Below, in pieces: positions 6,443 to 33,496 of a stretch of 48,929 bases of DNA. Location of the stretch: assembly GCA_902633335.1 (NCBI GenBank), contig CACPFY010000009.1, positions 1 through 48,929 of the forward strand, in the 5' to 3' direction. The notes below the pieces were generated by a model. The model ran no database searches. It worked only from the letters and a program-made list of their open reading frames with translations, and was not told the DNA's origin. The translations under genes were made by a program, and so were the position numbers. Numbering within the stretch: the stretch's first letter is position 1; each line of letters opens with the position of its first letter. The stretch is from an uncultured Pelagibacteraceae bacterium (GTDB lineage Bacteria; Pseudomonadota; Alphaproteobacteria; Pelagibacterales; Pelagibacteraceae).

Positions 6443-7149
6443 TGCAACCTTTAAAAAATTGGGACAATAAAACTTGGTTATCATCTAAAAAATATATTTT
6501 ATATTTTCACAAATTTTTAAATAAAAAATTTAAATTTAATTCAAATACTAAAATTTTAGATATAGGTTGTGGTAGAGCACATATAATAAGTTTTTTACAT
6601 AGAAAATACAAATTTAAAGAACAACCTATCGGTATAGATATAATAAAAAACAAAAATATAAAAAAAAACATTACTTTTATAAAAACAGACGCAAATAAAT
6701 ATTTAAAAAAAAATAAAAGGTTTGACTTAATCATTATTAAACAAACTGTTCATTTCTTTAATAAAAAAAAAATAACTTTCTTACTTGAGAAAATTAAAAA
6801 AAGTTTAAATCCAAGGGGTAAACTTTTAATTTTATCACTTAAAATAAAAAATAACAGGATTCCGTGCTTTAAAAAGATGAAACTTAAGTTAAATGAAAGT
6901 TTAAAAAAAGATAAAAAATTAATAGATTTTATTAAAAAAAATCTACCAAATTACAAATTATCCTATTTCAAATTTAAAGTAAGTATTACAAAAAAAAGAT
7001 ATTTAAGAATGATTAAAGACCGATATATTTCATGCTTATTGAAATTTTCAAATCAGGATATTAAAAATGGTATAAGTGAAATTAATTTAAGATATAGTAG
7101 AAAAATTCAATTTATAGATACTTTATTATGTATCTCATTTAGAAAATAA
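6442..7149 (+). CDS. Class I SAM-dependent methyltransferase
   Basis: This 235-residue protein has a SAM-binding motif I, ILDIGCGRAHIISFL, near residue 35. An acidic strand IGIDI follows near 65, and FDLIIIKQTVHFF near 94 replaces the usual post-II motif. It is extremely lysine-rich and AT-driven. It starts at the last base of the pta stop (TAATG), so it is translationally coupled to pta. The C-terminal third has no recognisable specificity domain. The substrate is unknown. Coupling to the sulfonate genes could be functional or merely compact genome packing. Confidence 0.7.
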   Translation: MQPLKNWDNKTWLSSKKYILYFHKFLNKKFKFNSNTKILDIGCGRAHIISFLHRKYKFKEQPIGIDIIKNKNIKKNITFIKTDANKYLKKNKRFDLIIIKQTVHFFNKKKITFLLEKIKKSLNPRGKLLILSLKIKNNRIPCFKKMKLKLNESLKKDKKLIDFIKKNLPNYKLSYFKFKVSITKKRYLRMIKDRYISCLLKFSNQDIKNGISEINLRYSRKIQFIDTLLCISFRK

Positions 7150-7842
7150 ATGACTGCAATAACTCGATCCAGACCAAACTTTTTTATAACCTTTCTCCAC
7201 TAAAAACTTATATATATAATTTTCTTTAATCTTTTTCTCTCTATCATCTGTTTCAAGCATTCCATAACCCAAAATTTCAACACAAATTAAAGATGGATCA
7301 TATTGTTTAAAATCTAATTTTTTTAAGACCTTCATTTCAGCTCCTTCTACATCAATATTTAAAAAATCTATTTTTCTTGCTTTATATTTTGAATTATTTA
7401 ACAAATTGTCAATAGAATTACATTTTATAGATTTTTCTTTAAAAATTCCATTAAAGTGCTGGATAGCAAGTTGTTTATTTGTAGTGTTTAGCTGACTGAA
7501 ATTTTTTTGATAATAAAAAATTATTTCGCCTTCTTTATCTGAAATAGCAGTCAATATATTTAAATCATTTGGTCTTAAAAAATTAAATAAATCTATGGAA
7601 AAATTATTAATATCAATATTTATTCCTTCCCACCCCTTTTGAAATAATAGTTGGGTGTTGTTCCGTTGAATCGGGTGGTGGGCTCCTATATCAACATAAA
7701 AACCTTTACTTTTTTTTTTGATATATTGCTCAATTGCAATATCCTCTCCATCCATAGAATAAGATTTCTTCTTTAAAAAATATTTATTTTTTAGATAAAT
7801 GTTTTGAAGTATATGAAGTTTGTTAAATATTTTACCCAACAT
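7135..7842 (-). CDS. FkbM-family methyltransferase
   Basis: A 235-residue FkbM-type SAM methyltransferase. The diagnostic features are the early SMDGEDIAIEQYI segment near residue 29, FYVDIGAHHP near 48 (SAM motif), WEGINIDIN near 70, and IDFLNIDVEGAEMKVLKKL near 158. Members usually O-methylate sugars, glycans or natural products. It converges with and overlaps the preceding plus-strand methyltransferase by 15 bases, so two different methyltransferases meet tail to tail. There is no signal peptide. The target is not predictable; surface polysaccharide modification is the commonest role in this family. Confidence 0.8.
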   Translation of the reverse strand: MLGKIFNKLHILQNIYLKNKYFLKKKSYSMDGEDIAIEQYIKKKSKGFYVDIGAHHPIQRNNTQLLFQKGWEGINIDINNFSIDLFNFLRPNDLNILTAISDKEGEIIFYYQKNFSQLNTTNKQLAIQHFNGIFKEKSIKCNSIDNLLNNSKYKARKIDFLNIDVEGAEMKVLKKLDFKQYDPSLICVEILGYGMLETDDREKKIKENYIYKFLVEKGYKKVWSGSSYCSHLFSK

Positions 7843-7879
7843 GATTTTTTTTAAACCATGTTGGATAAATTTAAAATAA

Positions 7880-8203
7880 CTATTTTCCTGGTTCTTTATA
7901 AGAACTAGCCATCTTTTGAGCAGTTTTAGCTATTCCGTTTAGATCGACATCTTCTAAAATAGTAAAATCTGATACTGCACCACTTGATACAGCAACCATT
8001 GCAGCAGCTGCTGCTTGTTCAAAAGTTCCTTCTATCTCTGCCATGAAATCATATTTTCCTCTTAGACCGGCATATCGAGTAACTTTTGCTCCTACTGAGG
8101 CAGCAAGTGCAGATGTAGCAGCTTTTCTATCTGTTGACGGGTTACTTACAAACCCACCAAGACCTTTTGCTGTGTAGCATCCTAATGTATAAAATTTAGC
8201 CAT
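7880..8203 (-). CDS. GYD-domain small protein
   Basis: The protein has 107 residues from the ATG at 8203, which has a GGAG ribosome site; a longer frame from 8227 lacks one and adds only eight charged residues. The body contains GLRGKYDFMAEIEGTFEQAA, matching the GYD domain named for its Gly-Tyr-Asp turn, here G-K-Y-D. GYD proteins have a ferredoxin-like dimeric alpha/beta fold. The catalytic role is unknown. It is the last of three small minus-strand genes that appear to share this fold, and lies downstream of the sulfopropanediol dehydrogenase genes. Confidence 0.65.
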   Translation of the reverse strand: MAKFYTLGCYTAKGLGGFVSNPSTDRKAATSALAASVGAKVTRYAGLRGKYDFMAEIEGTFEQAAAAAMVAVSSGAVSDFTILEDVDLNGIAKTAQKMASSYKEPGK

Positions 8204-17785: not shown

Positions 17786-18576
17786 TAAGATTACTATTCT
17801 TCTTTTTTTTACTACCTATAAATTCTAACGCAACTGAATTTCAAGGAAGTTTTAAACAAGGTTCGTTTATTCTAGGAAAAACTAATCAAAATTCAGAGGT
17901 TTATATCGATAAAAAAAAAGTTAGAGTAACAAAAGATGGGTACTTTGCTTTTGGAATAGATAGAGACAGAAAAAATAATGTAATAATTAAAGTAATAAAT
18001 AATGGAAAAACAGAGATTATAGAAAAAAAGATATTTAAAAAAAAATATATCATTCAAAGAATTGATGGTTTGCCTCCTAAACAAGTTACACCCCCCAAAG
18101 AAGTTTATGATAGAATTAAAGCTGATAATGTTTTGATTGGTAAAGCTAGATCTATAAATAGTAATTTAACATTCTTCAAAAATAAGTTTAAAGCTCCATT
18201 AAAAAATTCAATTGTTACCGGAGTTTATGGAAGTCAAAGAATACTTAATGGCAAACCTAGAAGACCACATTACGGATTGGATTTTGCCTCACCAGAGGGT
18301 ACCCCAATTAAAGCTATGTTAGACGGTGTAGTTACTCTCGCAGAAGACGATCTATATTTTACTGGAGGTACAATTATCTTTGATCACGGGCATGGGGTTA
18401 GTACATTATATATGCACTTAAAAGATGTAGATGTAAAAATTGGGCAAAAAGTAAAACAAGGTGAAAAAATTGGAACGGTTGGAAAAACAGGAAGATCAAC
18501 CGGGCCACATTTAGATATAAGATTAAATTGGTTTAATGTAAAACTAGATCCAGCTAGTGTTTTAAAATTAAATTAA
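17770..18576 (+). CDS. M23-family zinc metallopeptidase (LytM-like)
   Basis: A 268-residue periplasmic peptidoglycan hydrolase homologue with a signal-like hydrophobic segment at residues 7-17. The catalytic domain contains RRPHYGLDFASPEGTPIKA near 157 (H-x-x-x-D) and STLYMHLKDV near 213. The last active-site motif is TGPHLDIRLNW near 243, where the usual H-x-H has an aspartate at the second position. An H-L-D motif is, as I recall, a recurrent proteobacterial variant rather than a broken site. The start overlaps the SDR stop by 16 bases. No link to sulfonate use is evident, so position may be coincidental. Confidence 0.8.
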   Translation: MDSKIIRLLFFFFLLPINSNATEFQGSFKQGSFILGKTNQNSEVYIDKKKVRVTKDGYFAFGIDRDRKNNVIIKVINNGKTEIIEKKIFKKKYIIQRIDGLPPKQVTPPKEVYDRIKADNVLIGKARSINSNLTFFKNKFKAPLKNSIVTGVYGSQRILNGKPRRPHYGLDFASPEGTPIKAMLDGVVTLAEDDLYFTGGTIIFDHGHGVSTLYMHLKDVDVKIGQKVKQGEKIGTVGKTGRSTGPHLDIRLNWFNVKLDPASVLKLN

Positions 18577-20354
18577 TTAAGATTTTTTTGAGGTTTCATA
18601 TCAGATTTTTTAATACCAGCTACCCTCACAGGTTTTTTCATAGCATCTCTTCTGAACGGCTCACCTAATTCTTGATTTAGTATAATTTCTATAAAAGTAG
18701 TTATCCCTTTTTTTTGATCCTCACACGATTGTTTAATTGCTTTAGTAGTTTCTTCCATTGACTTAACTGTTACACCTTTTAAACCACATGCATCAGCAAC
18801 TTTGGCAAAGCTTAACTCTGGATCAAGCTCCGTGCCTATAAAGTTATTGTTAAACCATAATGTCGTATTTCTTTTTTCTGCTCCCCATTGGTAATTTCTA
18901 AAAATTACCATTGTTATTGCTGGCCACTCTTCTCGCGCACAAGAGCTCATTTCGTTCATGCTGATACCAAAAGCTCCGTCCCCAGCAAATCCAATTACCG
19001 GCACATCTGGGCAACCAATTTTTGCTCCAAGTATAGATGGAAACCCATAACCACAAGGACCAAACAAACCTGGTGCTAAATATTTTCTTCCCTTTTCAAA
19101 AGTAGGGTAAGCATTTCCAATAGCACAATTGTTTCCAATATCACTTGAAATTATTACATCCTCTGGCATTCCTGCTTGAATTGCTCTCCAAGCTTGGCGA
19201 GGTGACATTCTATCTTTATCTCTTGATCTAGCCTCTTTATTCCACACAGTTCCTGGATCATCTTCTTCATGATCTAAGCTTGATAACTTTTGAAGCCATG
19301 CAGACTTAGTTTGATGTATTAAATCTTTTCGTTTTTGTCTATCAGTATCACCTGCTTTTTTAGAAAGTTTATTTAGTAGTTGTTGTGCCACTAATTTAGC
19401 GTCACCACAAATACCAACTGTTACTTTTTTGGTTAAACCAATTCTATCTGAATTCATATCTACTTGAATTATTTTTGCATTTTTTGGCCAGTAATCAATT
19501 CCATATCCAGGCAAAGTAGAAAATGGATTTAATCTTGTGCCCAAAGCTAAAACTACATCTGCTTTAGATATCAATTCCATTGCTGCTTTCGATCCATTGT
19601 ATCCTAAAGGTCCAACGGCTAAAGGATGGCTTCCTGGGAAACTATCATTATGTTGATAGCCTGAACAAACTGGAGAGTCTAATTTTTCAGCTAATTTTTT
19701 ACAATCTTCTATAGCTCCACCTATTACGACTCCAGCTCCAGATAAAATTACTGGAAACTTAGCGTCAGATAATAATTGTGCTGCTTTATCAATTGCTTCT
19801 GCTCCACCTGCCTGCCTCTCTAATCTAACGATTGGTGGTAATTCTATATCAATGACTTGAGTCCAATAATCTCTTGGAACATTAATTTGTGCAGGGGCAG
19901 ATCCTCTTATCGCTTTTTCTATTACTCTATTTAAAACCTCTGCAATTCTTGAAGGATCTCTAACTTCTTCCTGATAACAAACCATGTCTTTAAATAAATT
20001 CATCTGCTCTACTTCTTGAAAACCACCTTGTCCCATAGTTTTGTTGGCTGCTTGAGGTGTTACCAAAAGTAATGGTGTATGATTCCAGTAAGCAGTTTTG
20101 ATTGGAGTTACTAATCCAGTAATTCCTGGTCCATTTTGAGCAACAACCATAGACATTTTTCCAGTAGCACGAGTGTATCCATCGGCTATAAGACCACCAT
20201 TAGTTTCATGAGCGACGTCCCAGAAAGTTATTCCAGCATCTGGAAAGATATGAGAAATAGGCATAAATGCTGAACCTATAATTCCAAACGCGTGTTCAAT
20301 ACCGTGCATTTGTAAAACTTTTACAAAAGCTTCTTCTGTGGTCATTTTAGCCAT
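18573..20354 (-). CDS. xsc: Sulfoacetaldehyde acetyltransferase
   Basis: Xsc is a thiamine-diphosphate enzyme converting sulfoacetaldehyde plus phosphate into acetyl-phosphate and sulfite. The 593-residue protein follows the family's layout. The N-terminal catalytic part includes IEHAFGIIGSAFMPISH near 15, and the ThDP/Mg motif GDGAFGISMNEMSSC lies near 455. The matching YQWGAEKRNTTLWFNNNF segment follows. This combination is characteristic of Xsc rather than acetolactate synthase. It is divergent from suyAB across a 74-base gap and converges on the M23 gene with a four-base overlap. Substrate sulfoacetaldehyde could come from taurine or isethionate. Confidence 0.92.
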   Translation of the reverse strand: MAKMTTEEAFVKVLQMHGIEHAFGIIGSAFMPISHIFPDAGITFWDVAHETNGGLIADGYTRATGKMSMVVAQNGPGITGLVTPIKTAYWNHTPLLLVTPQAANKTMGQGGFQEVEQMNLFKDMVCYQEEVRDPSRIAEVLNRVIEKAIRGSAPAQINVPRDYWTQVIDIELPPIVRLERQAGGAEAIDKAAQLLSDAKFPVILSGAGVVIGGAIEDCKKLAEKLDSPVCSGYQHNDSFPGSHPLAVGPLGYNGSKAAMELISKADVVLALGTRLNPFSTLPGYGIDYWPKNAKIIQVDMNSDRIGLTKKVTVGICGDAKLVAQQLLNKLSKKAGDTDRQKRKDLIHQTKSAWLQKLSSLDHEEDDPGTVWNKEARSRDKDRMSPRQAWRAIQAGMPEDVIISSDIGNNCAIGNAYPTFEKGRKYLAPGLFGPCGYGFPSILGAKIGCPDVPVIGFAGDGAFGISMNEMSSCAREEWPAITMVIFRNYQWGAEKRNTTLWFNNNFIGTELDPELSFAKVADACGLKGVTVKSMEETTKAIKQSCEDQKKGITTFIEIILNQELGEPFRRDAMKKPVRVAGIKKSDMKPQKNLN

Positions 20355-20428: not shown

Positions 20429-20716
20429 ATGTCACAGCCTGATTTAATTATACACGATGAGAAAGATAATGTTGGTGTAGTTGTAATTGAAACCACAAAA
20501 AAAGGCCAAGATTGCAGTGCCTGGATCATGGAAAATGATAAAACTGTTAAAGTTAGCTCGATGAATGAAGTTCCATTAGGTCATAAAATTGCTCTACAGG
20601 ATTTAAAAGAAGGCGATACCATACTTAAATATGGTCACGATATAGGCAAAGTAGTAAAGCCTATAAGAAAAGGTGAACATGTTCATGTTCATAATGTAAA
20701 AACAAAAAAATGGTAA
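20429..20716 (+). CDS. suyA: (2R)-sulfolactate sulfo-lyase, small subunit
   Basis: This 95-residue SAF-domain protein is the small subunit of sulfolactate sulfo-lyase, which splits (2R)-3-sulfolactate to pyruvate and sulfite. It has the UxaA N-terminal-type pattern VPLGHKIALQDLKEGDTILKY near 50 with YGHDIGKVVKPIRKGEHVHVHN downstream, the conserved histidine-rich end. The partner gene starts four bases after its stop. A 74-base gap separates it from divergent xsc. The altronate dehydratase small domain is the alternative, but it is normally fused or paired in sugar-acid operons, which are absent. Confidence 0.9.
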   Translation: MSQPDLIIHDEKDNVGVVVIETTKKGQDCSAWIMENDKTVKVSSMNEVPLGHKIALQDLKEGDTILKYGHDIGKVVKPIRKGEHVHVHNVKTKKW

Positions 20717-20720
20717 TTAG

Positions 20721-21887
20721 ATGGATATCCCAAAGAGTTTTTTAGGTTATAAAAGAGAGAATGGCAGAGCGGGAACAAGAAATCACGTAATTATTCTTCC
20801 AGTTGACGATATTTCAAACGCATGTGCTGAAGCTGTGGCCAATAATATCAAAGGCACGATTGCCTTACCTCACTCATATGGAAGGTTGCAGTTTGGAGCA
20901 GATTTAGAATTACATTTTAGAACAATGATTGGAACTGGAAAAAATCCTAATGTTGCAGCAGTAATTGTAATAGGAATTGAACCTAAATGGACAAAAAGAA
21001 TTGTAGATGAGATAGCAAAAACAGGAAAACCTGTGGAAGGGTTTCATATAGAGAGAACTGGAGACATAGGTACAATAATGAAGGCCTCAAAAAAAGCACA
21101 AGAATTTTCTCAATGGGCTTCGGAAAAACAAAGAGAAGAATGTCCTTTAAGCGATTTATGGATTTCTGTTAAATGTGGAGAGTCTGATACAACATCTGGC
21201 TTAGCATCAAACCCAACGGTAGGAAATTTAATGGAAAAACTAGAGCCTTTTGGAGTTCATCTGTGCTTCGGAGAGACTTCAGAATTAACAGGTGCTGAAA
21301 AGGTTTGTGCAGCTAGAGGGGCAACTCCTGAGGCTAAAGAAAAATTTATGAAAACTTGGAGCGCTTACAACGATTTTATTTTAAAAGAAGCAACTAATGA
21401 TCTTTCTGAAAGTCAACCAACAGCTGGAAATATTGCTGGAGGTTTAACAACTATAGAGGAAAAAGCGTTTGGAAATTTTCAAAAAATTGGAAATTTAAAA
21501 TTTATAGATGTCTTGGAGCCAGCTGAAGAACCTAAAAAAGGTAAGGGATTATATTTTATGGATACTTCGTCAGCTGCAGCAGAGTGTGTAACTTTACAAG
21601 CTGCAGGAGGATTTAATATACACTTGTTCCCTACAGGACAAGGTAACATTATAGGTAATCCTATTGAGCCTGTAGTAAAGTTAACAGCTAATCCTCTAAC
21701 AGCAAAACTTATGAAAGAGCACGTGGATTGCGACGTTTCAAAAATTTTATCTAGAGAGATGAACTTATCTCAAGCAGGAGATGAACTTATTAAAACTATG
21801 CTAAGAGTTGCTAACGGACGATTAACTTGCGCTGAGGCTTTAGGTCATAGGGAATTTGTGATGACTAAGTTGTACAGAAGCGCATAA
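20721..21887 (+). CDS. suyB: (2R)-sulfolactate sulfo-lyase, large subunit
   Basis: The large subunit of the two-component sulfo-lyase, 388 residues, belongs to the UxaA/altronate dehydratase C-terminal family. Key segments are [19 protein letters not shown] near 14, [11 protein letters not shown] near 50, [17 protein letters not shown] near 151 with the likely metal/iron-sulfur cysteine, and [18 protein letters not shown] near 305. Four further cysteines are scattered through it. It converges with the TauE-like exporter gene, 13 bases away, so sulfite release and removal are encoded side by side. This shows the C3 sulfonate branch ends in pyruvate. Confidence 0.9.
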
Positions 21888-21900
21888 CAATAAAAGTATA

Positions 21901-23031
21901 TTATTTTTCCGGAAATTTAACTTCGTCTTCTTTTTTAACTTCTTTTTTTCTAAAATCACTTAGCATTTTCCTAATGATTGGACTTAAAACTTTTCTCATA
22001 AATGCTATTAATGCCCCAAGAGCTACAGCTAATAAAATTGCAAGAGTTCCGTATAAGAAAGGCGCATCACTTGCAAAGTTTACAGTAAATTCTGCTAAAG
22101 CGTTTAAATCTGTTTTTATAATTTTTTCTCCATTAAAATTGGATTTGTCTCTAAAGAAAGAGTCATAACCAATTGCAATTGCTACCGAAATCAAAAGCAT
22201 TGCAAATAAAGATTTTAATTCTGTGCTATCTAAAAACTGACCAAGTTTTTGACCAAGTTGAACACCAACTATAGAACCAAGTATGAGTGGGACAACTAAA
22301 AATAAATCGATAGACCCATAGTTGAATGCATGTAGCACTGTTACTATTGCACTTATAAAAATAGTAACAAATAATGAAGTTCCTGGTATCAATTTAACTG
22401 GCATTCCAACAATATAAATCATAGCTGGAACCATTAAGAATGCGCCACCAATACCCATCATTGCAGCTACAAAACCAACAACTAAACCTAATAAAATTGG
22501 AGTTAAAGCGCTTTCATATAATTTTGATTTCGGAAATCTCATTCTTATTGGTAATCCTTGTAGCCAATTATGTTCATGAAGTTTTTGTTTAATTGAAGTT
22601 TTTTTTCTTTGAAGAACTTTTTCTCTATAGGTTTGAATTAACATTAATGTTCCAACCATTGCGAGTAGATACATATATAATAAGGAAATTATTATGCTTA
22701 TTTTTCCTATATCAGAAAAAAATGTAAACGTTGTTATTCCTAAAATTGTTCCTATTACACCGCCAGAAACAATCATTAACCCCATTTTGTAATCTAAAGT
22801 ATTTTTGTACCAATGTGTTAGAGATCCAGAGACGGATGTTGCTAATATATTATTAACTTCATTTGGTACAGCATAAACTGGGGGTATTCCCATAAATATT
22901 AAAAATGGTGTCATTAAAAAACCCCCACCTACACCAAATAAACCTGATAATACACCAACGGCTAAACTTAAGAATAATAATAGAAAGATGTCTATATTGA
23001 CCTGCGCTATTGGAAGATATATTTCCAGCAT
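21901..23031 (-). CDS. tauE: TauE/SafE-family sulfite/organosulfonate exporter
   Basis: A 376-residue membrane protein with about eight hydrophobic helices and the duplicated TauE/SafE motif, GVLSGLFGVGGGFLMTPF near 26 and FVAAMMGIGGAFLMVP near 200. The two halves are linked by a charged cytoplasmic loop (about 137-175), and a basic-acidic tail follows the last helix. TauE and relatives (TauZ, SuyZ, CuyZ) are thought to export sulfite released by sulfonate degradation. It ends the apr-cluster direction, 36 bases after the small unknown gene. Other anions are transported by relatives, so sulfite is inferred from the neighbourhood. Confidence 0.85.
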   Translation of the reverse strand: MLEIYLPIAQVNIDIFLLLFLSLAVGVLSGLFGVGGGFLMTPFLIFMGIPPVYAVPNEVNNILATSVSGSLTHWYKNTLDYKMGLMIVSGGVIGTILGITTFTFFSDIGKISIIISLLYMYLLAMVGTLMLIQTYREKVLQRKKTSIKQKLHEHNWLQGLPIRMRFPKSKLYESALTPILLGLVVGFVAAMMGIGGAFLMVPAMIYIVGMPVKLIPGTSLFVTIFISAIVTVLHAFNYGSIDLFLVVPLILGSIVGVQLGQKLGQFLDSTELKSLFAMLLISVAIAIGYDSFFRDKSNFNGEKIIKTDLNALAEFTVNFASDAPFLYGTLAILLAVALGALIAFMRKVLSPIIRKMLSDFRKKEVKKEDEVKFPEK

Positions 23032-23067: not shown

Positions 23068-23418
23068 TTAATAAATTGTGGCTCCAAATACTTTTACTAA
23101 GTCGCCTTCAACTCCCAAAACTAATCTACCTAGAAATTCCCCTTTAACGGTATCGCTTTTTTGCTTATACAAAACAGTAATAAAATTATCTCTTCTTATA
23201 CAGCCTAAAACTTCTTGTTGCTCAGAAAGACTTGTTAGTAGTTTATTGCTAGCCCATTGCTTTCCTAGCTCTACCTCATTTGCACCGTAAAGCATCTGTG
23301 ATGAGAAATCCTTTGTAAAACCTCCGTAGTCTTTAATATTAGAAGATTTAACTAAATTAGACCAAATAGGACTAGCGATCTTAATGATTTCATCATCGCT
23401 TTTCTCTAACAAGTTCAT
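23068..23418 (-). CDS. Conserved-looking small protein downstream of aprA
   Basis: I do not recognise this protein. From the ATG at 23418 it has 116 residues; the open frame reaches back to 23460 but would overlap aprA further. It begins with acidic helices (NLLEKSDDEIIKIASPIW), and the second half contains QQEVLGCIRRDNFITVLYKQ and GEFLGRLVLGVEGDLVKVFG, likely a small beta-rich domain. There is no signal peptide or membrane helix. It is the first gene after aprA and overlaps no other, so a role with AprBA, for example as an accessory or regulator, is possible but unsupported by any motif. Confidence 0.6.
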   Translation of the reverse strand: MNLLEKSDDEIIKIASPIWSNLVKSSNIKDYGGFTKDFSSQMLYGANEVELGKQWASNKLLTSLSEQQEVLGCIRRDNFITVLYKQKSDTVKGEFLGRLVLGVEGDLVKVFGATIY

Positions 23419-23428
23419 TTTTATAAAT

Positions 23429-25288
23429 TTAAGAGGCCTTTTTTTTCTTGTCGTCGCCAACTATGTGATAAACAGGCATTTTTTCCAATGTAAATTTGCC
23501 GGTCTTAGGATCTCTTCTTGATACAGTTAAACAATGCCAATTTTCATCATCAAGCTTTAACTTATCACCCCTGTAATAATATCCAGGCCAACGTGTCTCT
23601 TCTCTATAAAGAGTATGTTCAGTAACGCATTGTGAAGTTAAAGTTCTGTGTTTTAATTCCCAAGCTCTCATTAATTGGTGGTAATCTTCTGCTCCAACAT
23701 TTTCTAAATCTTCTTGCAACCAATCTAATAATTCTAAACCTTTTTTAAGCAAATTATCGTTAGTCATATAATTTGCTGTTATACCTCCGACATATTCGTC
23801 CATTATTTTTTGAAGTCTTTGTAATCCTTGGATAGGTGATATATAACTTGGTGAAACTGTGCCTCCTGTTATCTCATTTCTTCCAATGGTGTAATTATCT
23901 AATGGTTTATATATTATATTTTTTAAGTTTTCACATTGGTTATCGCTAACTTTAATATCGTCTGCTTTTTTGTCTTCGATATATTTTACTGCAGCTTTGG
24001 CTGCTAGCCTTCCTTCAGTAAAAGAGCCAGATGAAAATTTATGTGCACTACCTCCTACAGTATCACCAGCGCCAAATAAACCTTCAACTGTAGTCATTCT
24101 ATTATAACCCCAAAAATATTCAGGTGGCGCAATATCCTCGGGACCACTGACCCACGCACCTGAGCAAGTAGCATGAGATCCCATAACATATGGTTCTGAT
24201 GTAGTTAATTCTGGATTAGTATACTTTGGGTCAATATTTTGCGATGCCCACACAACCGCTTGCCCTACTGTCATTCCTAAGAAATTTTCCCATCCAACAG
24301 TTTCAAGGTGTGGATCTTGGAAAGCTTCTTTTGTTACCATGTGGATTGGTCCTCCTCCAGCCATCACTTCTTGAATAAACGCGTGATTTCTTAAACAAGT
24401 AGGAGTTGGGTGGTGATCAATATACTCACCTACTAATTCTTTTGTCTTATCGTACCATTTCTTCTCATAGTTTTCGCCATTAGCATTTTGAGTGTAAGTT
24501 TTTAAATGTAAAAAATAAGCACCTACAGGACCATAACCGTCTTTGAATCTGCATAATACAATTCTATTTTCCATTTGAGTCATTTTAGCACCTGCTGCAA
24601 TTGGTAAAGCATATGCTGATCCATTGCTCCACGGAGCATACCAAGTTCTACCCATGCCTTCTCCAACTGCTCTAGGTTTAAAAATATGTGAAGCTCCGCC
24701 CGCAGCTACTATAACAGTTTTTGCTTTAAACACGTGGTAGTCTCCGGTTCTCATATTAAAACCTACTGCACCACCCACTCGATTTGGATTGTTTTCATCC
24801 ATAAGTAAATGTGTAACCATTATTCTATTATAAATTTTATCTGCGGATTTTTTTGCAGCTTCAGCAACAATTGGTTTGTAGCTTTCTCCATGAATCATAA
24901 TTTGCCATTTACCTTCTCTTTGGTATCTTCCAGTTTTTTTATCTTTCATCATAGGTAGACCCCATTCATCAAACATATGAACTGTGGAATCAACGTGACG
25001 AGCCATATCGTAACCAAGATCTTCTCTCACAAGTCCCATAAGATCGTTTCTTGCGTATCTAACATGATCTTCAGGTTGATTTTCATTCCATCTCATACCC
25101 ATATAACAGTTGATAGCGTATAAGCCTTGAGCCACTGCACCACTTCTATCTATATTGGCTTTTTCTACACAGATTATTTTTAAATCTCTTCCCCAGTGTC
25201 TAGCTTCAAATGTAGCACCTGTTCCAGCCATACCTCCGCCTACTACAAGAACATCGCAATTTTCGTGAACAGTTTTTCTTTTTGGCAT
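23429..25288 (-). CDS. aprA: Adenylylsulfate reductase, FAD subunit alpha
   Basis: This 619-residue flavoprotein catalyses APS reduction or, in the reverse direction, sulfite plus AMP oxidation to APS. The FAD motif DVLVVGGGMAGTGATFEA lies near residue 13, and NIDRSGAVAQGLYAINCYMG near 45 is a strongly conserved AprA segment. FRDMNPI-type sulfate motifs are not seen, but IVLCRFKDGYGPVGAYF near 248 and GDTVGGSAHKFSSGSFTEGR near 405 match the family. The stop-start overlap with aprB (25288) shows coupling. The context, namely sulfite-producing Xsc and SuyAB and no dissimilatory reductase, suggests sulfite oxidation or detoxification. Confidence 0.92.
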   Translation of the reverse strand: MPKRKTVHENCDVLVVGGGMAGTGATFEARHWGRDLKIICVEKANIDRSGAVAQGLYAINCYMGMRWNENQPEDHVRYARNDLMGLVREDLGYDMARHVDSTVHMFDEWGLPMMKDKKTGRYQREGKWQIMIHGESYKPIVAEAAKKSADKIYNRIMVTHLLMDENNPNRVGGAVGFNMRTGDYHVFKAKTVIVAAGGASHIFKPRAVGEGMGRTWYAPWSNGSAYALPIAAGAKMTQMENRIVLCRFKDGYGPVGAYFLHLKTYTQNANGENYEKKWYDKTKELVGEYIDHHPTPTCLRNHAFIQEVMAGGGPIHMVTKEAFQDPHLETVGWENFLGMTVGQAVVWASQNIDPKYTNPELTTSEPYVMGSHATCSGAWVSGPEDIAPPEYFWGYNRMTTVEGLFGAGDTVGGSAHKFSSGSFTEGRLAAKAAVKYIEDKKADDIKVSDNQCENLKNIIYKPLDNYTIGRNEITGGTVSPSYISPIQGLQRLQKIMDEYVGGITANYMTNDNLLKKGLELLDWLQEDLENVGAEDYHQLMRAWELKHRTLTSQCVTEHTLYREETRWPGYYYRGDKLKLDDENWHCLTVSRRDPKTGKFTLEKMPVYHIVGDDKKKKAS

Positions 25289-25758
25289 TAATAATAAACT
25301 CCCTTTTTAAAAGAGTCTTTACTAATTGTAGGTAAATCTTTCTTAGTATCTAGTCCCTCAGGCTCTGAGTAAAGAACTTGTGAATTCATTTCACCTTGAC
25401 GAGGTTTATCTCCCTCAGCTAATTTTGGAATAAATTTTCCCCATGGTTTTGTTGTAATAGGAGAAACAAAATCTTTTTCCGTTCCATTTCTAAATTTAAT
25501 TTTCCAAGATATTGTCCCCTTTTCTTCTTCTCTTCTTACTCTTACACTGTGGCCCATGGGTGCGAAATCTGCATATCCTCTGACATCAATAGCATGGTTT
25601 GGACAAGCCTTTACGCAAGAATAACATTCCCAACAAAAATTTGGTTCAATATTTTTAGCTCTTCTGATGGTTTCATCAATGTGCATGATGTCTGAAGGAC
25701 AAATATCAACACAATGTCCGCATCCGTCACATCTTGTCATATATACAAAAGTAGACAT
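25288..25758 (-). CDS. aprB: Adenylylsulfate reductase, iron-sulfur subunit beta
   Basis: A 156-residue electron-transfer subunit with two 4Fe-4S cluster motifs, CDGCGHCVDICP near residue 10 and CWECYSCVKACP near 42. After the clusters there is a beta-rich region containing GHSVRVRREEEKGTISW, and a C-terminal tail that wraps AprA in known structures. It passes electrons between AprA and the membrane, presumably through AprM. It overlaps aprA by one base and follows aprM by 63 bases. Confidence 0.93.
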   Translation of the reverse strand: MSTFVYMTRCDGCGHCVDICPSDIMHIDETIRRAKNIEPNFCWECYSCVKACPNHAIDVRGYADFAPMGHSVRVRREEEKGTISWKIKFRNGTEKDFVSPITTKPWGKFIPKLAEGDKPRQGEMNSQVLYSEPEGLDTKKDLPTISKDSFKKGVYY

Positions 25759-25821: not shown

Positions 25822-26613
25822 TTAATAATGTTTTGGTTGTTCTCTTTTAATACCAAGGCCAAATTGCTCAGGTGCATCCGCTGGTGGAGGCAAATTGTCT
25901 CTAGAGCCGTCAGCCTCTGCTAAATTTTTTTGTATAGCAGCACCTGGTTTATAAAACATATGTGCAAATTTAGACCAGTAAACCCCTCCAAATAAAACTA
26001 GATTTGAAATAATAAATAAAGTTAGAAATAAATAACTCAATCCAAACATATCTGCTGACTGAGTGAATGACCAAGCGAGTCCAAATGTAGCACAAGCAAG
26101 TAAAGCCAAAACAAATAGATCTGCAGTTATAATTCTATACCAAGGGTGTGCTTCTGCAGAAACATCTACTCTTAAAAAAAACCAAAACCAGTATCCACCT
26201 ATACATGTCATAATCGCTCCAACATGCCAAATAATTGGAATATAAGTTGGTGCAGCAACTCCATCAGAATATTTAAAAATTAAAACTACAGAAGCAATCC
26301 AAAAAAAGATTGTTCCGTACATTCCTAAAACGTGAGCCAGTCTTCTCTTTCCAAAGCCTAGCTCGGATGTCGTTGCAATATCACTAGCTACTGTTTTTAG
26401 AATTACGGCTGTTTTTTTTCCTGTGCTTAATTCAGTTTTAGCAGATTTTTTTGCTTTTTGGGCGTTTCTAAAAAAATAAACTACATTCTTTTTGTGTAGC
26501 ATATCCAAACCAGTTCCAATGATAATTAACAATATCATTGCAATAACAAAAAATTGCAAAAAAGAAGGAGGAATTATTACTGAGAGTTCCGCGAATGGAT
26601 TAATTGATAACAT
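25822..26613 (-). CDS. aprM: AprM-like membrane protein of the apr cluster
   Basis: A 263-residue integral membrane protein with about six hydrophobic helices (roughly 14-34, 87-107, 119-140, 160-180, 195-215). Histidines are in RLAHVLGMYG, IIWHVGAIM and AEAHPWYRI. The histidines in helices suggest haem or quinone contacts as in NarI-like subunits. Its place directly upstream of aprB matches aprM, described in sulfur oxidisers that lack QmoABC. It should link AprBA electrons to the quinone pool. No QmoABC genes are seen here. Confidence 0.85.
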   Translation of the reverse strand: MLSINPFAELSVIIPPSFLQFFVIAMILLIIIGTGLDMLHKKNVVYFFRNAQKAKKSAKTELSTGKKTAVILKTVASDIATTSELGFGKRRLAHVLGMYGTIFFWIASVVLIFKYSDGVAAPTYIPIIWHVGAIMTCIGGYWFWFFLRVDVSAEAHPWYRIITADLFVLALLACATFGLAWSFTQSADMFGLSYLFLTLFIISNLVLFGGVYWSKFAHMFYKPGAAIQKNLAEADGSRDNLPPPADAPEQFGLGIKREQPKHY

Positions 26614-26664: not shown

Positions 26665-27057
26665 TTATTTTAACTTTCCATCCTTTCTCATTTGTTCTCT
26701 TATTTTTGTTGCAGAAATTTGCTGCGTCTTTTCGTCAAGAACAATTTCCTCCATCTTATAACCAACGCCTCTTCCATAACAAATATTTGTAATATTAGGC
26801 ACTAGAGAAACTTGAATTCTACCTTTGTAATCTTTTAACGCCTCTAAAATATTTTTTTTAACTGTTTCAAAGTTAAAGGGATTGTCATCAACTCCTTGAA
26901 CATCACGGACCATAATATTTACCTGGCCAGTTTTTTTTAATATTTCTTCAAACAGTTTCTGATGTCCTGCATGCCACGGTTGCCATCTTCCAAGCATTTG
27001 AGCGGTCGGTTTCTTATTATCCCAGACATGACCATCATTTTTCATTTGGTCTGCCAT
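26665..27057 (-). CDS. Small HxGH-motif nucleotidyltransferase in the apr operon
   Basis: A 130-residue adenylyltransferase-superfamily protein. GRWQPWHAGHQKLF has the nucleotide-binding H-A-G-H at residues 29-32, RD at 51-52 lies in MVRDVQGVDD, and ISATKIREQM with the late IS-x-T-x-x-R motif is at 114-120. ATP sulfurylase shares these elements (HxGH and a late SGT-x-x-R), although it is far longer. The gene sits ten bases after the CADD-like gene and 51 bases before aprM. It could process adenylylsulfate in place of a missing sat, or be a nucleotide-cofactor enzyme. The superfamily is clear; the substrate is unknown. Confidence 0.75.
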   Translation of the reverse strand: MADQMKNDGHVWDNKKPTAQMLGRWQPWHAGHQKLFEEILKKTGQVNIMVRDVQGVDDNPFNFETVKKNILEALKDYKGRIQVSLVPNITNICYGRGVGYKMEEIVLDEKTQQISATKIREQMRKDGKLK

Positions 27058-27066
27058 AGAAATTCT

Positions 27067-27732
27067 TTAAGCAGCGGCTTGTATTTTATGCTTTGTAGAC
27101 ATTCCGCTTAGGAAATTCCAAAGATATCTTGCTGTCAGCATAGAAGCTTTTTCTGCTTTGATTTTTTCTTCATCTGTTAAAGCGTCCAATAGCTTTTCAC
27201 ACTCTTTTCTATGTATTACATCAGCAGCTTTATGAGCTTCAAAAAACTCTAAACCTTCTTTTGATGTAACTCCATAAAAATTTTTTAGTCCTCTTATTTT
27301 TGTTTCAGCAATTTCAGGGATTTGCCTTTCATAAGTATACAAAGAAGCTAAACCTTCAGCATATGATTTTCTCGCTTGATGAAAAAAGTTTTCAATCATA
27401 TCATTAGTAAACCATTCTCTCTTTACATCTTCGATTTTATCTTTGTCAGCTCCCATTGCCAATGCAAAGTTTTTCCACAGCTTTGGATGGTCTGCGTTAG
27501 GATTTTCTTCATCTTGAAGATTTTCCAAAAGAATTTTTCTTTTTTCAATGTCTTCACAAATTGAATGTGTAGCGCTTATGTATCTTGGAAATGCTTTTAC
27601 GTGTTGGTAATATTGTTCTGCGTAATCTCTGATTATCTCTCTTGTTAACTTTCCCTCATTCCAAGACTTATAGAATGGGTGATTTAATAAATGGTACTGG
27701 TCTAATTTTTTGTTAAGATCTTGTGAAAACAT
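27067..27732 (-). CDS. CADD-like haem-oxygenase-fold di-iron protein (candidate 4-aminobenzoate synthase)
   Basis: A 221-residue member of the PqqC/TENA-like HDO superfamily. The six candidate iron ligands are all visible: E75, H82, E135, H167, D171 and H174. Residues reported as needed by Chlamydia CADD are also present: Tyr21 in HPFYKSW (matching the sacrificed tyrosine), Tyr134 before E135, and Lys145. Spacing agrees with CADD as I recall it. CADD makes p-aminobenzoate from its own tyrosine, feeding folate. It is the first gene of the apr transcript, downstream of a terminator and a likely promoter, starting with an AAGGAG site. PqqC is less likely because no pqq genes are present. Confidence 0.8.
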   Translation of the reverse strand: MFSQDLNKKLDQYHLLNHPFYKSWNEGKLTREIIRDYAEQYYQHVKAFPRYISATHSICEDIEKRKILLENLQDEENPNADHPKLWKNFALAMGADKDKIEDVKREWFTNDMIENFFHQARKSYAEGLASLYTYERQIPEIAETKIRGLKNFYGVTSKEGLEFFEAHKAADVIHRKECEKLLDALTDEEKIKAEKASMLTARYLWNFLSGMSTKHKIQAAA

Positions 27733-32550: not shown

Positions 32551-32730
32551 ATGCAATTTGATCTTGAACCAGGCGATTTCGTTATAAACCCTAAGAATAA
32601 AGAGTGGGGAACAGGACAAATACAATCGGTTATAAAAAATAAAATAACAGTAAATTTTCAGAATAGTGGTAAACAAGTTATTGATGTAAATCATATAATT
32701 TTAGAAAAGGTTAAAATAAATGAAAATTGA
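32551..32730 (+). CDS. DUF3553 small protein
   Basis: A 59-residue protein whose sequence fits DUF3553: LEPGDFVINPKNKEWGTGQI near residue 5 and KITVNFQNSGKQVI near 31, a small SH3-like barrel pattern common in Alphaproteobacteria. It overlaps the start of cysQ by 11 bases. No function is established that I know of; related KOW-like barrels bind nucleic acid or protein. Confidence 0.8.
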   Translation: MQFDLEPGDFVINPKNKEWGTGQIQSVIKNKITVNFQNSGKQVIDVNHIILEKVKINEN

Positions 32731-33496
32731 TTATAAAAAAATTGCTGAAGAACTAATTCCTATTTTTGAAGAAGCAGGCCAAGAGTCGATAAATTTATAT
32801 AATAAAGGATTAAAGATTGAAATTAAAGAGGATGGATCGCCAGTTAGTAATGGAGATTTAAAAGTCAATGAAATCATTAGTAAAAAGATTGAGCAACTTA
32901 CACCGGATATTCCTATTATTTCAGAGGAAACTGTTAATTTAGAGGAGAAAAATAAAAATTCTGTGTTTTGGTTAATTGACCCTATTGATGGAACGAAAGA
33001 ATATATTTCTGGGAAAGATGAGTACACTTTAAACGCAGCATTAGTAATTGATAAAAAACCTATTTTAGGCTTGGTGGGAGTCCCTAAAAAAAAACAACTA
33101 TTTTATTCCTATGCTATAGGTCAAAGTTTTATAAGACAAAATGGTGATGATAAAAAAATAGAATGTAAAAAAAAGGATGATAGAAATACTATTATTGCAG
33201 TTTCTAGTATGAGTAAACCACCAGAAATAATAATGAAAAAATTAAATGAGTATAAAGTTTCTTCAATCACAAAAGTCGCTAGTTCTTATAAATTTTGTCT
33301 AATTGCAGATGGTACTTTTGACATTTATGCTGCAAGAGAGAGAGCTAACGAATGGGATTATGCTGCAGGTCACGCTGTTGCTAAAAATGCAGGGGCAATC
33401 ATAACTACTTTAGATAATAAGCCTTTTTTGTATGGTAAAGAAGATTATAAAAATCCAAGTTTATTAATACTTAGGTCCAAAAATTTAAATGACTAA
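32720..33496 (+). CDS. cysQ: 3'(2'),5'-bisphosphate nucleotidase CysQ
   Basis: A 258-residue inositol-monophosphatase-fold enzyme removing the 3'-phosphate of PAP/PAPS. The metal-site motifs are SEETVNLEEK near residue 74, WLIDPIDGTKEYISGKDEYT near 90 and the late ANEWDYAAGHAVAKNAGA near 212. KEYISGKDEYTLNAALV is the CysQ-specific pattern versus inositol phosphatase. It hydrolyses PAP from sulfotransfer, useful even where sulfate reduction is missing. It overlaps DUF3553 and the small membrane protein on both sides. Confidence 0.88.
   Translation: MKIDYKKIAEELIPIFEEAGQESINLYNKGLKIEIKEDGSPVSNGDLKVNEIISKKIEQLTPDIPIISEETVNLEEKNKNSVFWLIDPIDGTKEYISGKDEYTLNAALVIDKKPILGLVGVPKKKQLFYSYAIGQSFIRQNGDDKKIECKKKDDRNTIIAVSSMSKPPEIIMKKLNEYKVSSITKVASSYKFCLIADGTFDIYAARERANEWDYAAGHAVAKNAGAIITTLDNKPFLYGKEDYKNPSLLILRSKNLND

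Follow-up and report, generated by a model that had tools for sequence, protein, structure and literature searches.

The present analysis concerns one small gene in the apr operon of a 48,929-nucleotide stretch of DNA from an uncultured Pelagibacteraceae bacterium (the window, meaning that whole stretch). Its product, a 130-residue nucleotidyltransferase referred to here as NT, is probably a minimal sulfate adenylyltransferase of the ATP-sulfurylase type on an NMNAT/PPAT-like HxGH core, a reading in which substrate and direction are taken from context. The wider interpretation, to which we give about an even chance, is that a further family of sulfate-activating adenylyltransferases came from the NMNAT/PPAT branch rather than from Sat or CysDN, that with a shortened APS kinase it would form a PAPS synthetase of about 258 residues in phages, SAR86 and SAR11, and that one SAR11 genus shed the kinase and may use what is left to form ATP at the end of sulfite oxidation by AprBA, which would answer where SAR11 APS goes. 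SAR11 is among the most abundant ocean groups and carries AprBA. If the proposal is right, a small APS adenylyltransferase completes SAR11 sulfite oxidation to sulfate with a gain of ATP, so that NT might close a recognised gap in the sulfur metabolism of SAR11, and the fused family gives many marine phages and SAR86 a PAPS supply of their own. P. ubique is described in passages of PMC5069961 as lacking sat and cysDNCHIJ and as possibly using AprBA to detoxify sulfite, and SAR11 sulfur pathways were still called incomplete in 2025 in part of PMC12636525.

The NT gene opens with ATG on the minus strand, and the plus strand across the same interval is interrupted by stops. The genes on which the argument draws are listed here.

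18573-20354, minus strand: xsc, sulfoacetaldehyde acetyltransferase (973.8 bits, cut-off 676.4)
20429-21887, plus strand: two genes, a SAF-domain protein (20429-20716) and a galactarate dehydratase-like protein (20721-21887), likely SuyAB, which we take to be sulfolactate sulfo-lyase
21901-23031, minus strand: TauE/SafE-type exporter (159.8 bits)
23068-23460, minus strand: small protein following aprA, unmatched in Pfam and NCBIfam
23429-25288, minus strand: aprA, adenylyl-sulfate reductase alpha subunit (TIGR02061, 1002 bits)
25288-25758, minus strand: aprB, adenylyl-sulfate reductase beta subunit (TIGR02060, 187.7 bits)
25822-26613, minus strand: aprM-like membrane protein (weak TcuB/QmoC-like matches; named after the first-pass annotation and passages of PMC2211403)
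26665-27057, minus strand: NT, minimal HxGH nucleotidyltransferase and candidate sulfate adenylyltransferase (motifs GRWQPWHAGH, RD, NPF, YGRGVGY and ISATKIR; conserved columns, structure model and selection)
27067-27732, minus strand: CADD-family protein (TIGR04305, 301 bits)
32720-33496, plus strand: CysQ-like 3'(2'),5'-bisphosphate nucleotidase (212.2 bits, just below the cut-off of 228.8)

The run from the CADD-family gene through NT and aprM to aprB and aprA is co-directional, with NT starting 9 bp after the CADD-family gene and ending 51 bp before the aprM-like gene. The first-pass annotation had placed NT between these genes, and the TIGR04305, TIGR02060 and TIGR02061 matches confirm that placement, with only the weak resemblance to TcuB/QmoC for aprM. 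It had also located HAGH at residues 29-32, RD at 51-52 and ISxTxxR at 114-120, all of which were found. AprBA of lineage I is described as aprM-linked in passages of PMC2211403, and suyAB is reported in Pelagibacteraceae in part of PMC12636525. The TauE exporter, the SuyAB-like pair and xsc around the operon are tied to sulfonate breakdown that releases sulfite, and the CysQ-like gene lies about 5 kb upstream of the CADD-family gene on the opposite strand. Counts of promoters and terminators in the operon showed no excess over shuffles. The genome that holds the window (949 kb in 21 contigs, 81% complete) is judged to be of SAR11 type from Pelagibacteraceae and SAR11-like relatives that share its gene order, and the genome-wide search for sat that the first-pass annotation had proposed returned no match there to Sat (PF01747), nor did CysD (TIGR02039) match in that 81% of a genome.

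NT is more than a chance open reading frame, because matches occur in 151 of the 197 sampled genomes of the order (the window's genome among them) and because dN is low against dS: compared with 11 congeners dN is 0.02-0.09 and dS about 2 or not computable, which shows strong purifying selection. Outside the order the protein is rare: at 1e-8 eight of the 398 Pseudomonadota genomes sampled have a match, one of them the window's own, and the sole other strong match is in G566. Among 43 diverse members the invariant columns are G23, R24, Q26, P27, H29, G31, H32, L35, Q45, V46, N88, G95, R96, V98, G99, I114 and R120, and R51, D52, N59, P60, Y94, Y100, S115 and T117 are among those conserved at 90% or more. 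HxGH and ISxTxxR on a Rossmann-like core place NT in the HxGH nucleotidyltransferase superfamily, where the Pfam CTP_transf_like model (PF01467) is barely reached (21.4 bits, cut-off 21) and a second, sub-threshold Pfam match is to ATP-sulfurylase (E 0.016, residues 72-128). NMNAT and PPAT, rather than Sat, are the nearest relatives in both sequence and fold. The first half is similar to archaeal NMN adenylyltransferase (PDB 1f9a, E 1.7e-9), and an AlphaFold2 model (pLDDT 87.5) superimposes on PPAT (CoaD) with Z 11.4 and on NMNAT (NadM) with Z 10.4 over 113-114 residues at an rmsd of 2.6-3.0. NadM is the closest in sequence, sharing GRxQPxHxGH and NPF, but NT is shorter, has a second half with a YGRxVGY motif of its own and falls far below the NadM models (22.9 of 181.2 bits for TIGR01527, 27.6 of 127 for NF002243).

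Of the earlier statement that NT and Sat share a superfamily, the broad part stood, with the HxxH fold class and an ISxT/S-x-x-R type motif in common, and any closer kinship did not. NT stays below the Sat gathering score (15.1 bits against 24.3 for PF01747), and where SAR11 Sat has the consensus QTRNIPHxGH and VGRDHAG, with its QTRN and GRDHAG signatures, NT has GRWQPWHAGH and VRDVQG. Direct homology was considered and is not supported, since alignment of the NT profile with three SAR11 Sat proteins by hhalign gave a probability of 10% (E 0.003) over 22 columns around HxGH. No Sat appeared among the 50 VIA matches listed for the NT model, a result that is compatible with Sat kinship. The first-pass annotation was also right that NT is far shorter than Sat, at 130 residues against about 335-345 in those three proteins. 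The proposed reaction is nonetheless that of Sat (EC 2.7.7.4), and AprBA, APS kinase and sulfotransferase, the genomic partners of Sat, are of the same kinds as those of NT.

One indication of substrate comes from a partner gene. In Pelagibacter-type genomes a 136-residue P-loop kinase precedes NT with a 4-bp overlap (L045), in family f2 a 164-residue kinase precedes it (L047, L048), and phages and other lineages have them as a single fused protein of about 258 residues, the kinase half taking about 135; the kinase is adjacent or fused to NT in Pelagibacter-type, f2, gammaproteobacterial and phage relatives alike. This partner is APS-kinase-like, its nearest solved relatives by sequence and by fold being APS kinases. 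The Pfam APS_kinase gathering score (PF01583, 21.1 bits) was reached by eight of nine kinase copies scanned (24.0, 37.9, 45.5, 28.9, 45.0, 28.9, 52.5 and 38.1 bits), with L043 falling short at 17.7, and the TIGR00455 equivalog cut-off of 138.7 bits was reached by neither of the two copies scanned (L045, 36.2; L391, 48.4). A profile of 48 fused proteins placed APS kinases in the 14 best positions against the PDB (best E 1.2e-12), and the fused-protein model (pLDDT 94.7), whose VIA list was filled by kinase matches, gave best fold Z scores of 18.5 for APS kinases and 16.1 for gluconate kinase. The kinases of a planctomycete MAG (L159) and of G566 carry NAD-x-VR-x-x-IN-x-x-LGF-x-x-ADR, which closely resembles the DGDNxR ... 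LGF motif that SAR11 genomes have in their CysC domains. The fusion resembles PAPS synthetase and bifunctional Sat-APS kinase in having an APS-kinase-like domain and an adenylyltransferase in one chain, but differs in its total length of about 258 residues and in an adenylyltransferase half that is NMNAT/PPAT-like, not Sat-like. In human PAPSS the kinase is N-terminal, the same order as in the NT fusions.

An alternative explanation could be that NT is an adenylyltransferase for NMN or another cofactor and its partner a nicotinamide-riboside-type kinase, a NadR-like salvage pair whose proximity to apr and sulfotransferase genes is incidental. The nucleotide-cofactor role that the first-pass annotation held in reserve keeps the support of NMNAT/PPAT as nearest relatives in sequence and fold, and in phage Suzuki the fusion has a NADAR-domain gene next to it. 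This would not account for a kinase half that matches APS kinases best, nor for sulfotransferase, CysQ and AprBA contexts that recur in unrelated lineages. It is further weakened because, among 41 genomes of the window's genus, 28 have an ordinary NadD that scores over the cut-off, NT carriers (G106, G108) and genomes without NT (G113, G118, G186) alike; NadD had no match in the window's own genome, which is 81% complete. Taken together we consider this salvage role quite improbable.

The neighbours of the kinase-NT pair are consistent with sulfate activation. Phages commonly carry the fusion, a relative being encoded in at least 590 of the 600 candidate IMG/VR stretches. Among the 80 best phage loci (L062-L141), 15 had a sulfotransferase no more than three genes away (adjacent in 13), compared with 0/80 and 0/80 in control loci around a TagD-like and a UvsX-like phage gene (p 3e-8). 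The counts from the phage and genome scans are not random samples, because the best 80 of about 600 candidate stretches were kept by similarity to one phage protein, and each control set shares one contig with the test set (L222/L064 and L302/L071). The sulfotransferase HMM was built from test-locus proteins and therefore favours the test set; all sets were also searched by motif, and a Pfam survey of neighbours serves as an independent check. In that survey of 126 adjacent co-directional neighbours, phage and cellular, distinct at 50% identity, Sulfotransfer_1 was found in 11 and Sulfotransfer_3 in 10 (overlapping sets), the next commonest family having three members, and among 55 control neighbours there was no sulfotransferase in the 25 families listed, with 22 unlisted families of at most one member each. 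Pfam assigned Sulfotransfer_3 or Sulfotransfer_1 to three of the phage neighbours scanned and Sulfotransfer_2 to the one in L096; the neighbour in L064 had a sub-threshold Stf0 match only and that in L063 no Pfam match. After deduplication at 80% identity a sulfotransferase was no more than three genes away in 6 of 41 phage clusters and DUF2061 in 12 of 41.

Cellular loci agree. In eight gammaproteobacterial loci (five titled SAR86) the gene directly upstream has the sulfotransferase motif and belongs to one cluster, of which one member was Pfam-confirmed at 136.7 bits, and Pfam likewise identified a sulfotransferase directly upstream in the planctomycete MAG (48.9 bits) and in a MAG labelled as archaeal (79.8 bits). 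G196 (L382), a member of the window's genus, serves as a positive control, with a sulfotransferase directly upstream of CysD-CysNC. In 19 loci of one alphaproteobacterial clade cysQ directly precedes kinase-NT (285 bits, over the cut-off, for the copy tested, L174), and xsc lies a further two or three genes upstream in L164, L166 and L174; open reading frames were called greedily by length, and in 18 of the 19 loci an antisense ORF masks the kinase frame, which is taken from the tblastn span. The NT family thus shows the recurrent linkage to PAPS-using or PAP-removing genes by which a PAPS synthetase-like family would be recognised. The association of the kinase with PF13469 across the 197 sampled genomes of the order (p 2e-5 overall) reflects differences between groups, since it is not significant inside f1-other (p 0.09) or f2 (p 0.33).

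DUF2061 was considered as a further marker of sulfate activation. It occurs no more than three genes from kinase-NT in 14 of the best 80 phage loci against 0/160 controls, and directly after cysNC in three of seven SAR11 CysD loci, L384 (10051-10278), L425 and L427, all from genomes of one SAR11-related genus, and not after cysNC in L382, L385, L424 or L426. We give it little weight because in 30 DUF2061 loci of other Pseudomonadota there was no cysD, cysNC, cysC or sat within 1.5 kb. The L384 CysD (6686-8158) is itself unusual at 490 residues, with an N-terminal extension of about 195 residues, the CysD model starting at residue 197.

It could also be argued that kinase-NT makes some other activated small molecule, such as an ADP-linked glycan precursor, near sulfotransferases in surface-glycan clusters, and that NT in the apr operon handles it or another adenylate. 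Several viral and SAR11 copies do sit among sugar-nucleotide genes, and an NT paralogue (44% identical) is found in a SAR11 glycan cluster (L049, 7827-13564). We think this improbable, as it predicts neither the linkage to aprMBA in two different arrangements, nor the loss of the kinase by itself in the apr-linked genus, nor the absence of NT from CysD genomes. The L049 paralogue overlaps by 4 bp a 1793-residue ORF whose C-terminus matches APS_kinase (47 bits) and which has no Pfam match elsewhere along its length.

Co-occurrence was counted across the 197 sampled genomes of the order as raw numbers, phylogeny and linkage being ignored in the statistics, with an aprA set of 155 genomes (152 over the curated cut-off; weaker matches, at 8e-13 and above, were taken as other flavoproteins). 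NT and aprA occurred together in 140 genomes, NT only in 11, aprA only in 15 and neither in 31; for NT and the kinase the corresponding numbers were 135, 16, one and 45. Either AprA or the kinase is present in 149 of 151 NT carriers, the exceptions being G038 and G106. CysD was found in none of the 151 NT genomes and in 10 of the 46 others (p 2e-7, unadjusted), and all ten lack both NT and aprA. CysDN, whose proteins are unrelated to NT, is its proposed functional counterpart, and in G196 CysD-CysNC likewise has a sulfotransferase upstream. Sat was present in 10 of 197 genomes, seven with NT and eight with aprA (odds ratio for Sat and aprA 1.1), so that the matching distribution of a classical sat, named in the first-pass annotation as a result that would tell against NT, was not seen. 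Fourteen of 14 gammaproteobacterial kinase-NT genomes (10 titled SAR86) showed neither Sat nor CysD. The suggestion that NT stands in for ATP sulfurylase has therefore gained support from APS-kinase-like pairing and fusion, from neighbouring sulfotransferase and CysQ genes, and from the lack of NT in genomes with CysD.

Several observations count against a sulfate adenylyltransferase, among them NMNAT/PPAT kinship and the non-significant kinase-PF13469 association inside f1-other and f2. NT is missing from 15 of 155 aprA genomes, including G030, G044 and G078 at 96-98% completeness, and of these 15 only G156 has Sat and none has CysD. G038 (98% complete) has lost aprM, aprB, aprA and the following gene and keeps CADD, NT and tauE; neither aprA nor the kinase, Sat, CysD or PF13469 had a match there, and G106 has NT without aprA or kinase. 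Sat and NT occur together, as in G611 and G615, and CysD and kinase-NT, never together in the 197 genomes, do so in one SAR116 genome, G614.

Arrangement of the operon differs among lineages. In the window's genus (18 genomes in the sample) NT lies upstream of aprA and co-directional with it, and 11 of 11 aprA genomes have NT beside aprA on the same contig; in f2 NT is also beside aprA but downstream and convergent (L047, L048, L051, L052), and in those Pelagibacter-type genomes whose coordinates were compared NT and aprA lie tens of kb from each other or on separate contigs. The kinase had no match in any of the 11 aprA genomes of the window's genus and is absent from 17 of the 18 genomes, and among the 11 only G127 shows a PF13469 match, a weak one (6e-5). 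The best reading of the window's stand-alone NT is a fusion protein from which the kinase has been lost, because in a related lineage (L151, L153, L155) this operon contains the unbroken fusion followed by CADD. These same observations could mean that NT is a catalytically idle remnant kept by hitch-hiking, which we regard as very improbable given strong purifying selection among congeners, retention of the conserved motifs and the presence of NT in all 11 aprA genomes sampled from the genus.

A minimal sulfate adenylyltransferase would account for these patterns with the chemistry ATP + sulfate <-> APS + PPi, an interconversion that fits both settings. The GR-x-QP-x-H-x-GH and ISATKIR motifs would hold the ATP phosphates, and the family-specific R51, N88 and YGR-x-VGY may offer an oxyanion pocket. 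With the APS-kinase-like partner the enzyme would lead to PAPS for sulfotransferases in phages, SAR86 and other SAR11, and in the window's genus, the kinase gone, it would run in reverse after AprBA, sulfite and AMP giving APS and then APS + PPi giving ATP + sulfate. A second possibility downstream of AprBA is an APS:phosphate adenylyltransferase (APS + Pi -> ADP + sulfate), which shares the operon logic that the APS made by AprBA must be cleaved in a genome in which Sat and CysD were not found. It is improbable in our view, since it leaves unexplained the APS-kinase-like and sulfotransferase pairing in phages, where APS must be made, and since HxGH enzymes of this superfamily normally use PPi or NTP.

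The patterns suggest that the sulfate adenylyltransferase family proposed here was previously unrecognised and that labels such as "kinase" and "cytidyltransferase" hide the proposed route; no paper assigning the NT protein was found in the portions of the literature searched. The phage family phrog_10255 matches NT through its C-terminal half (E 4.4e-25), and its phage members here are kinase-NT fusions, but it is annotated only as "kinase" with no substrate assigned.

Other genes of the operon also recur. The CADD (TIGR04305) gene adjoins NT in the apr operon of the window's genus and of the L151 lineage (L034, L151, L053, L392, L393); it has no obvious role in sulfur metabolism and is kept with NT in G038, where aprMBA is gone. 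Relatives of the small protein at 23068-23460 follow aprA in other SAR11 lineages, the convergent f2 arrangement included. Between CADD and aprM in L151 (5415-5717) there is a 100-residue cytochrome c resembling SorU, the cytochrome subunit of sulfite dehydrogenase (80.8 bits, cut-off 100).
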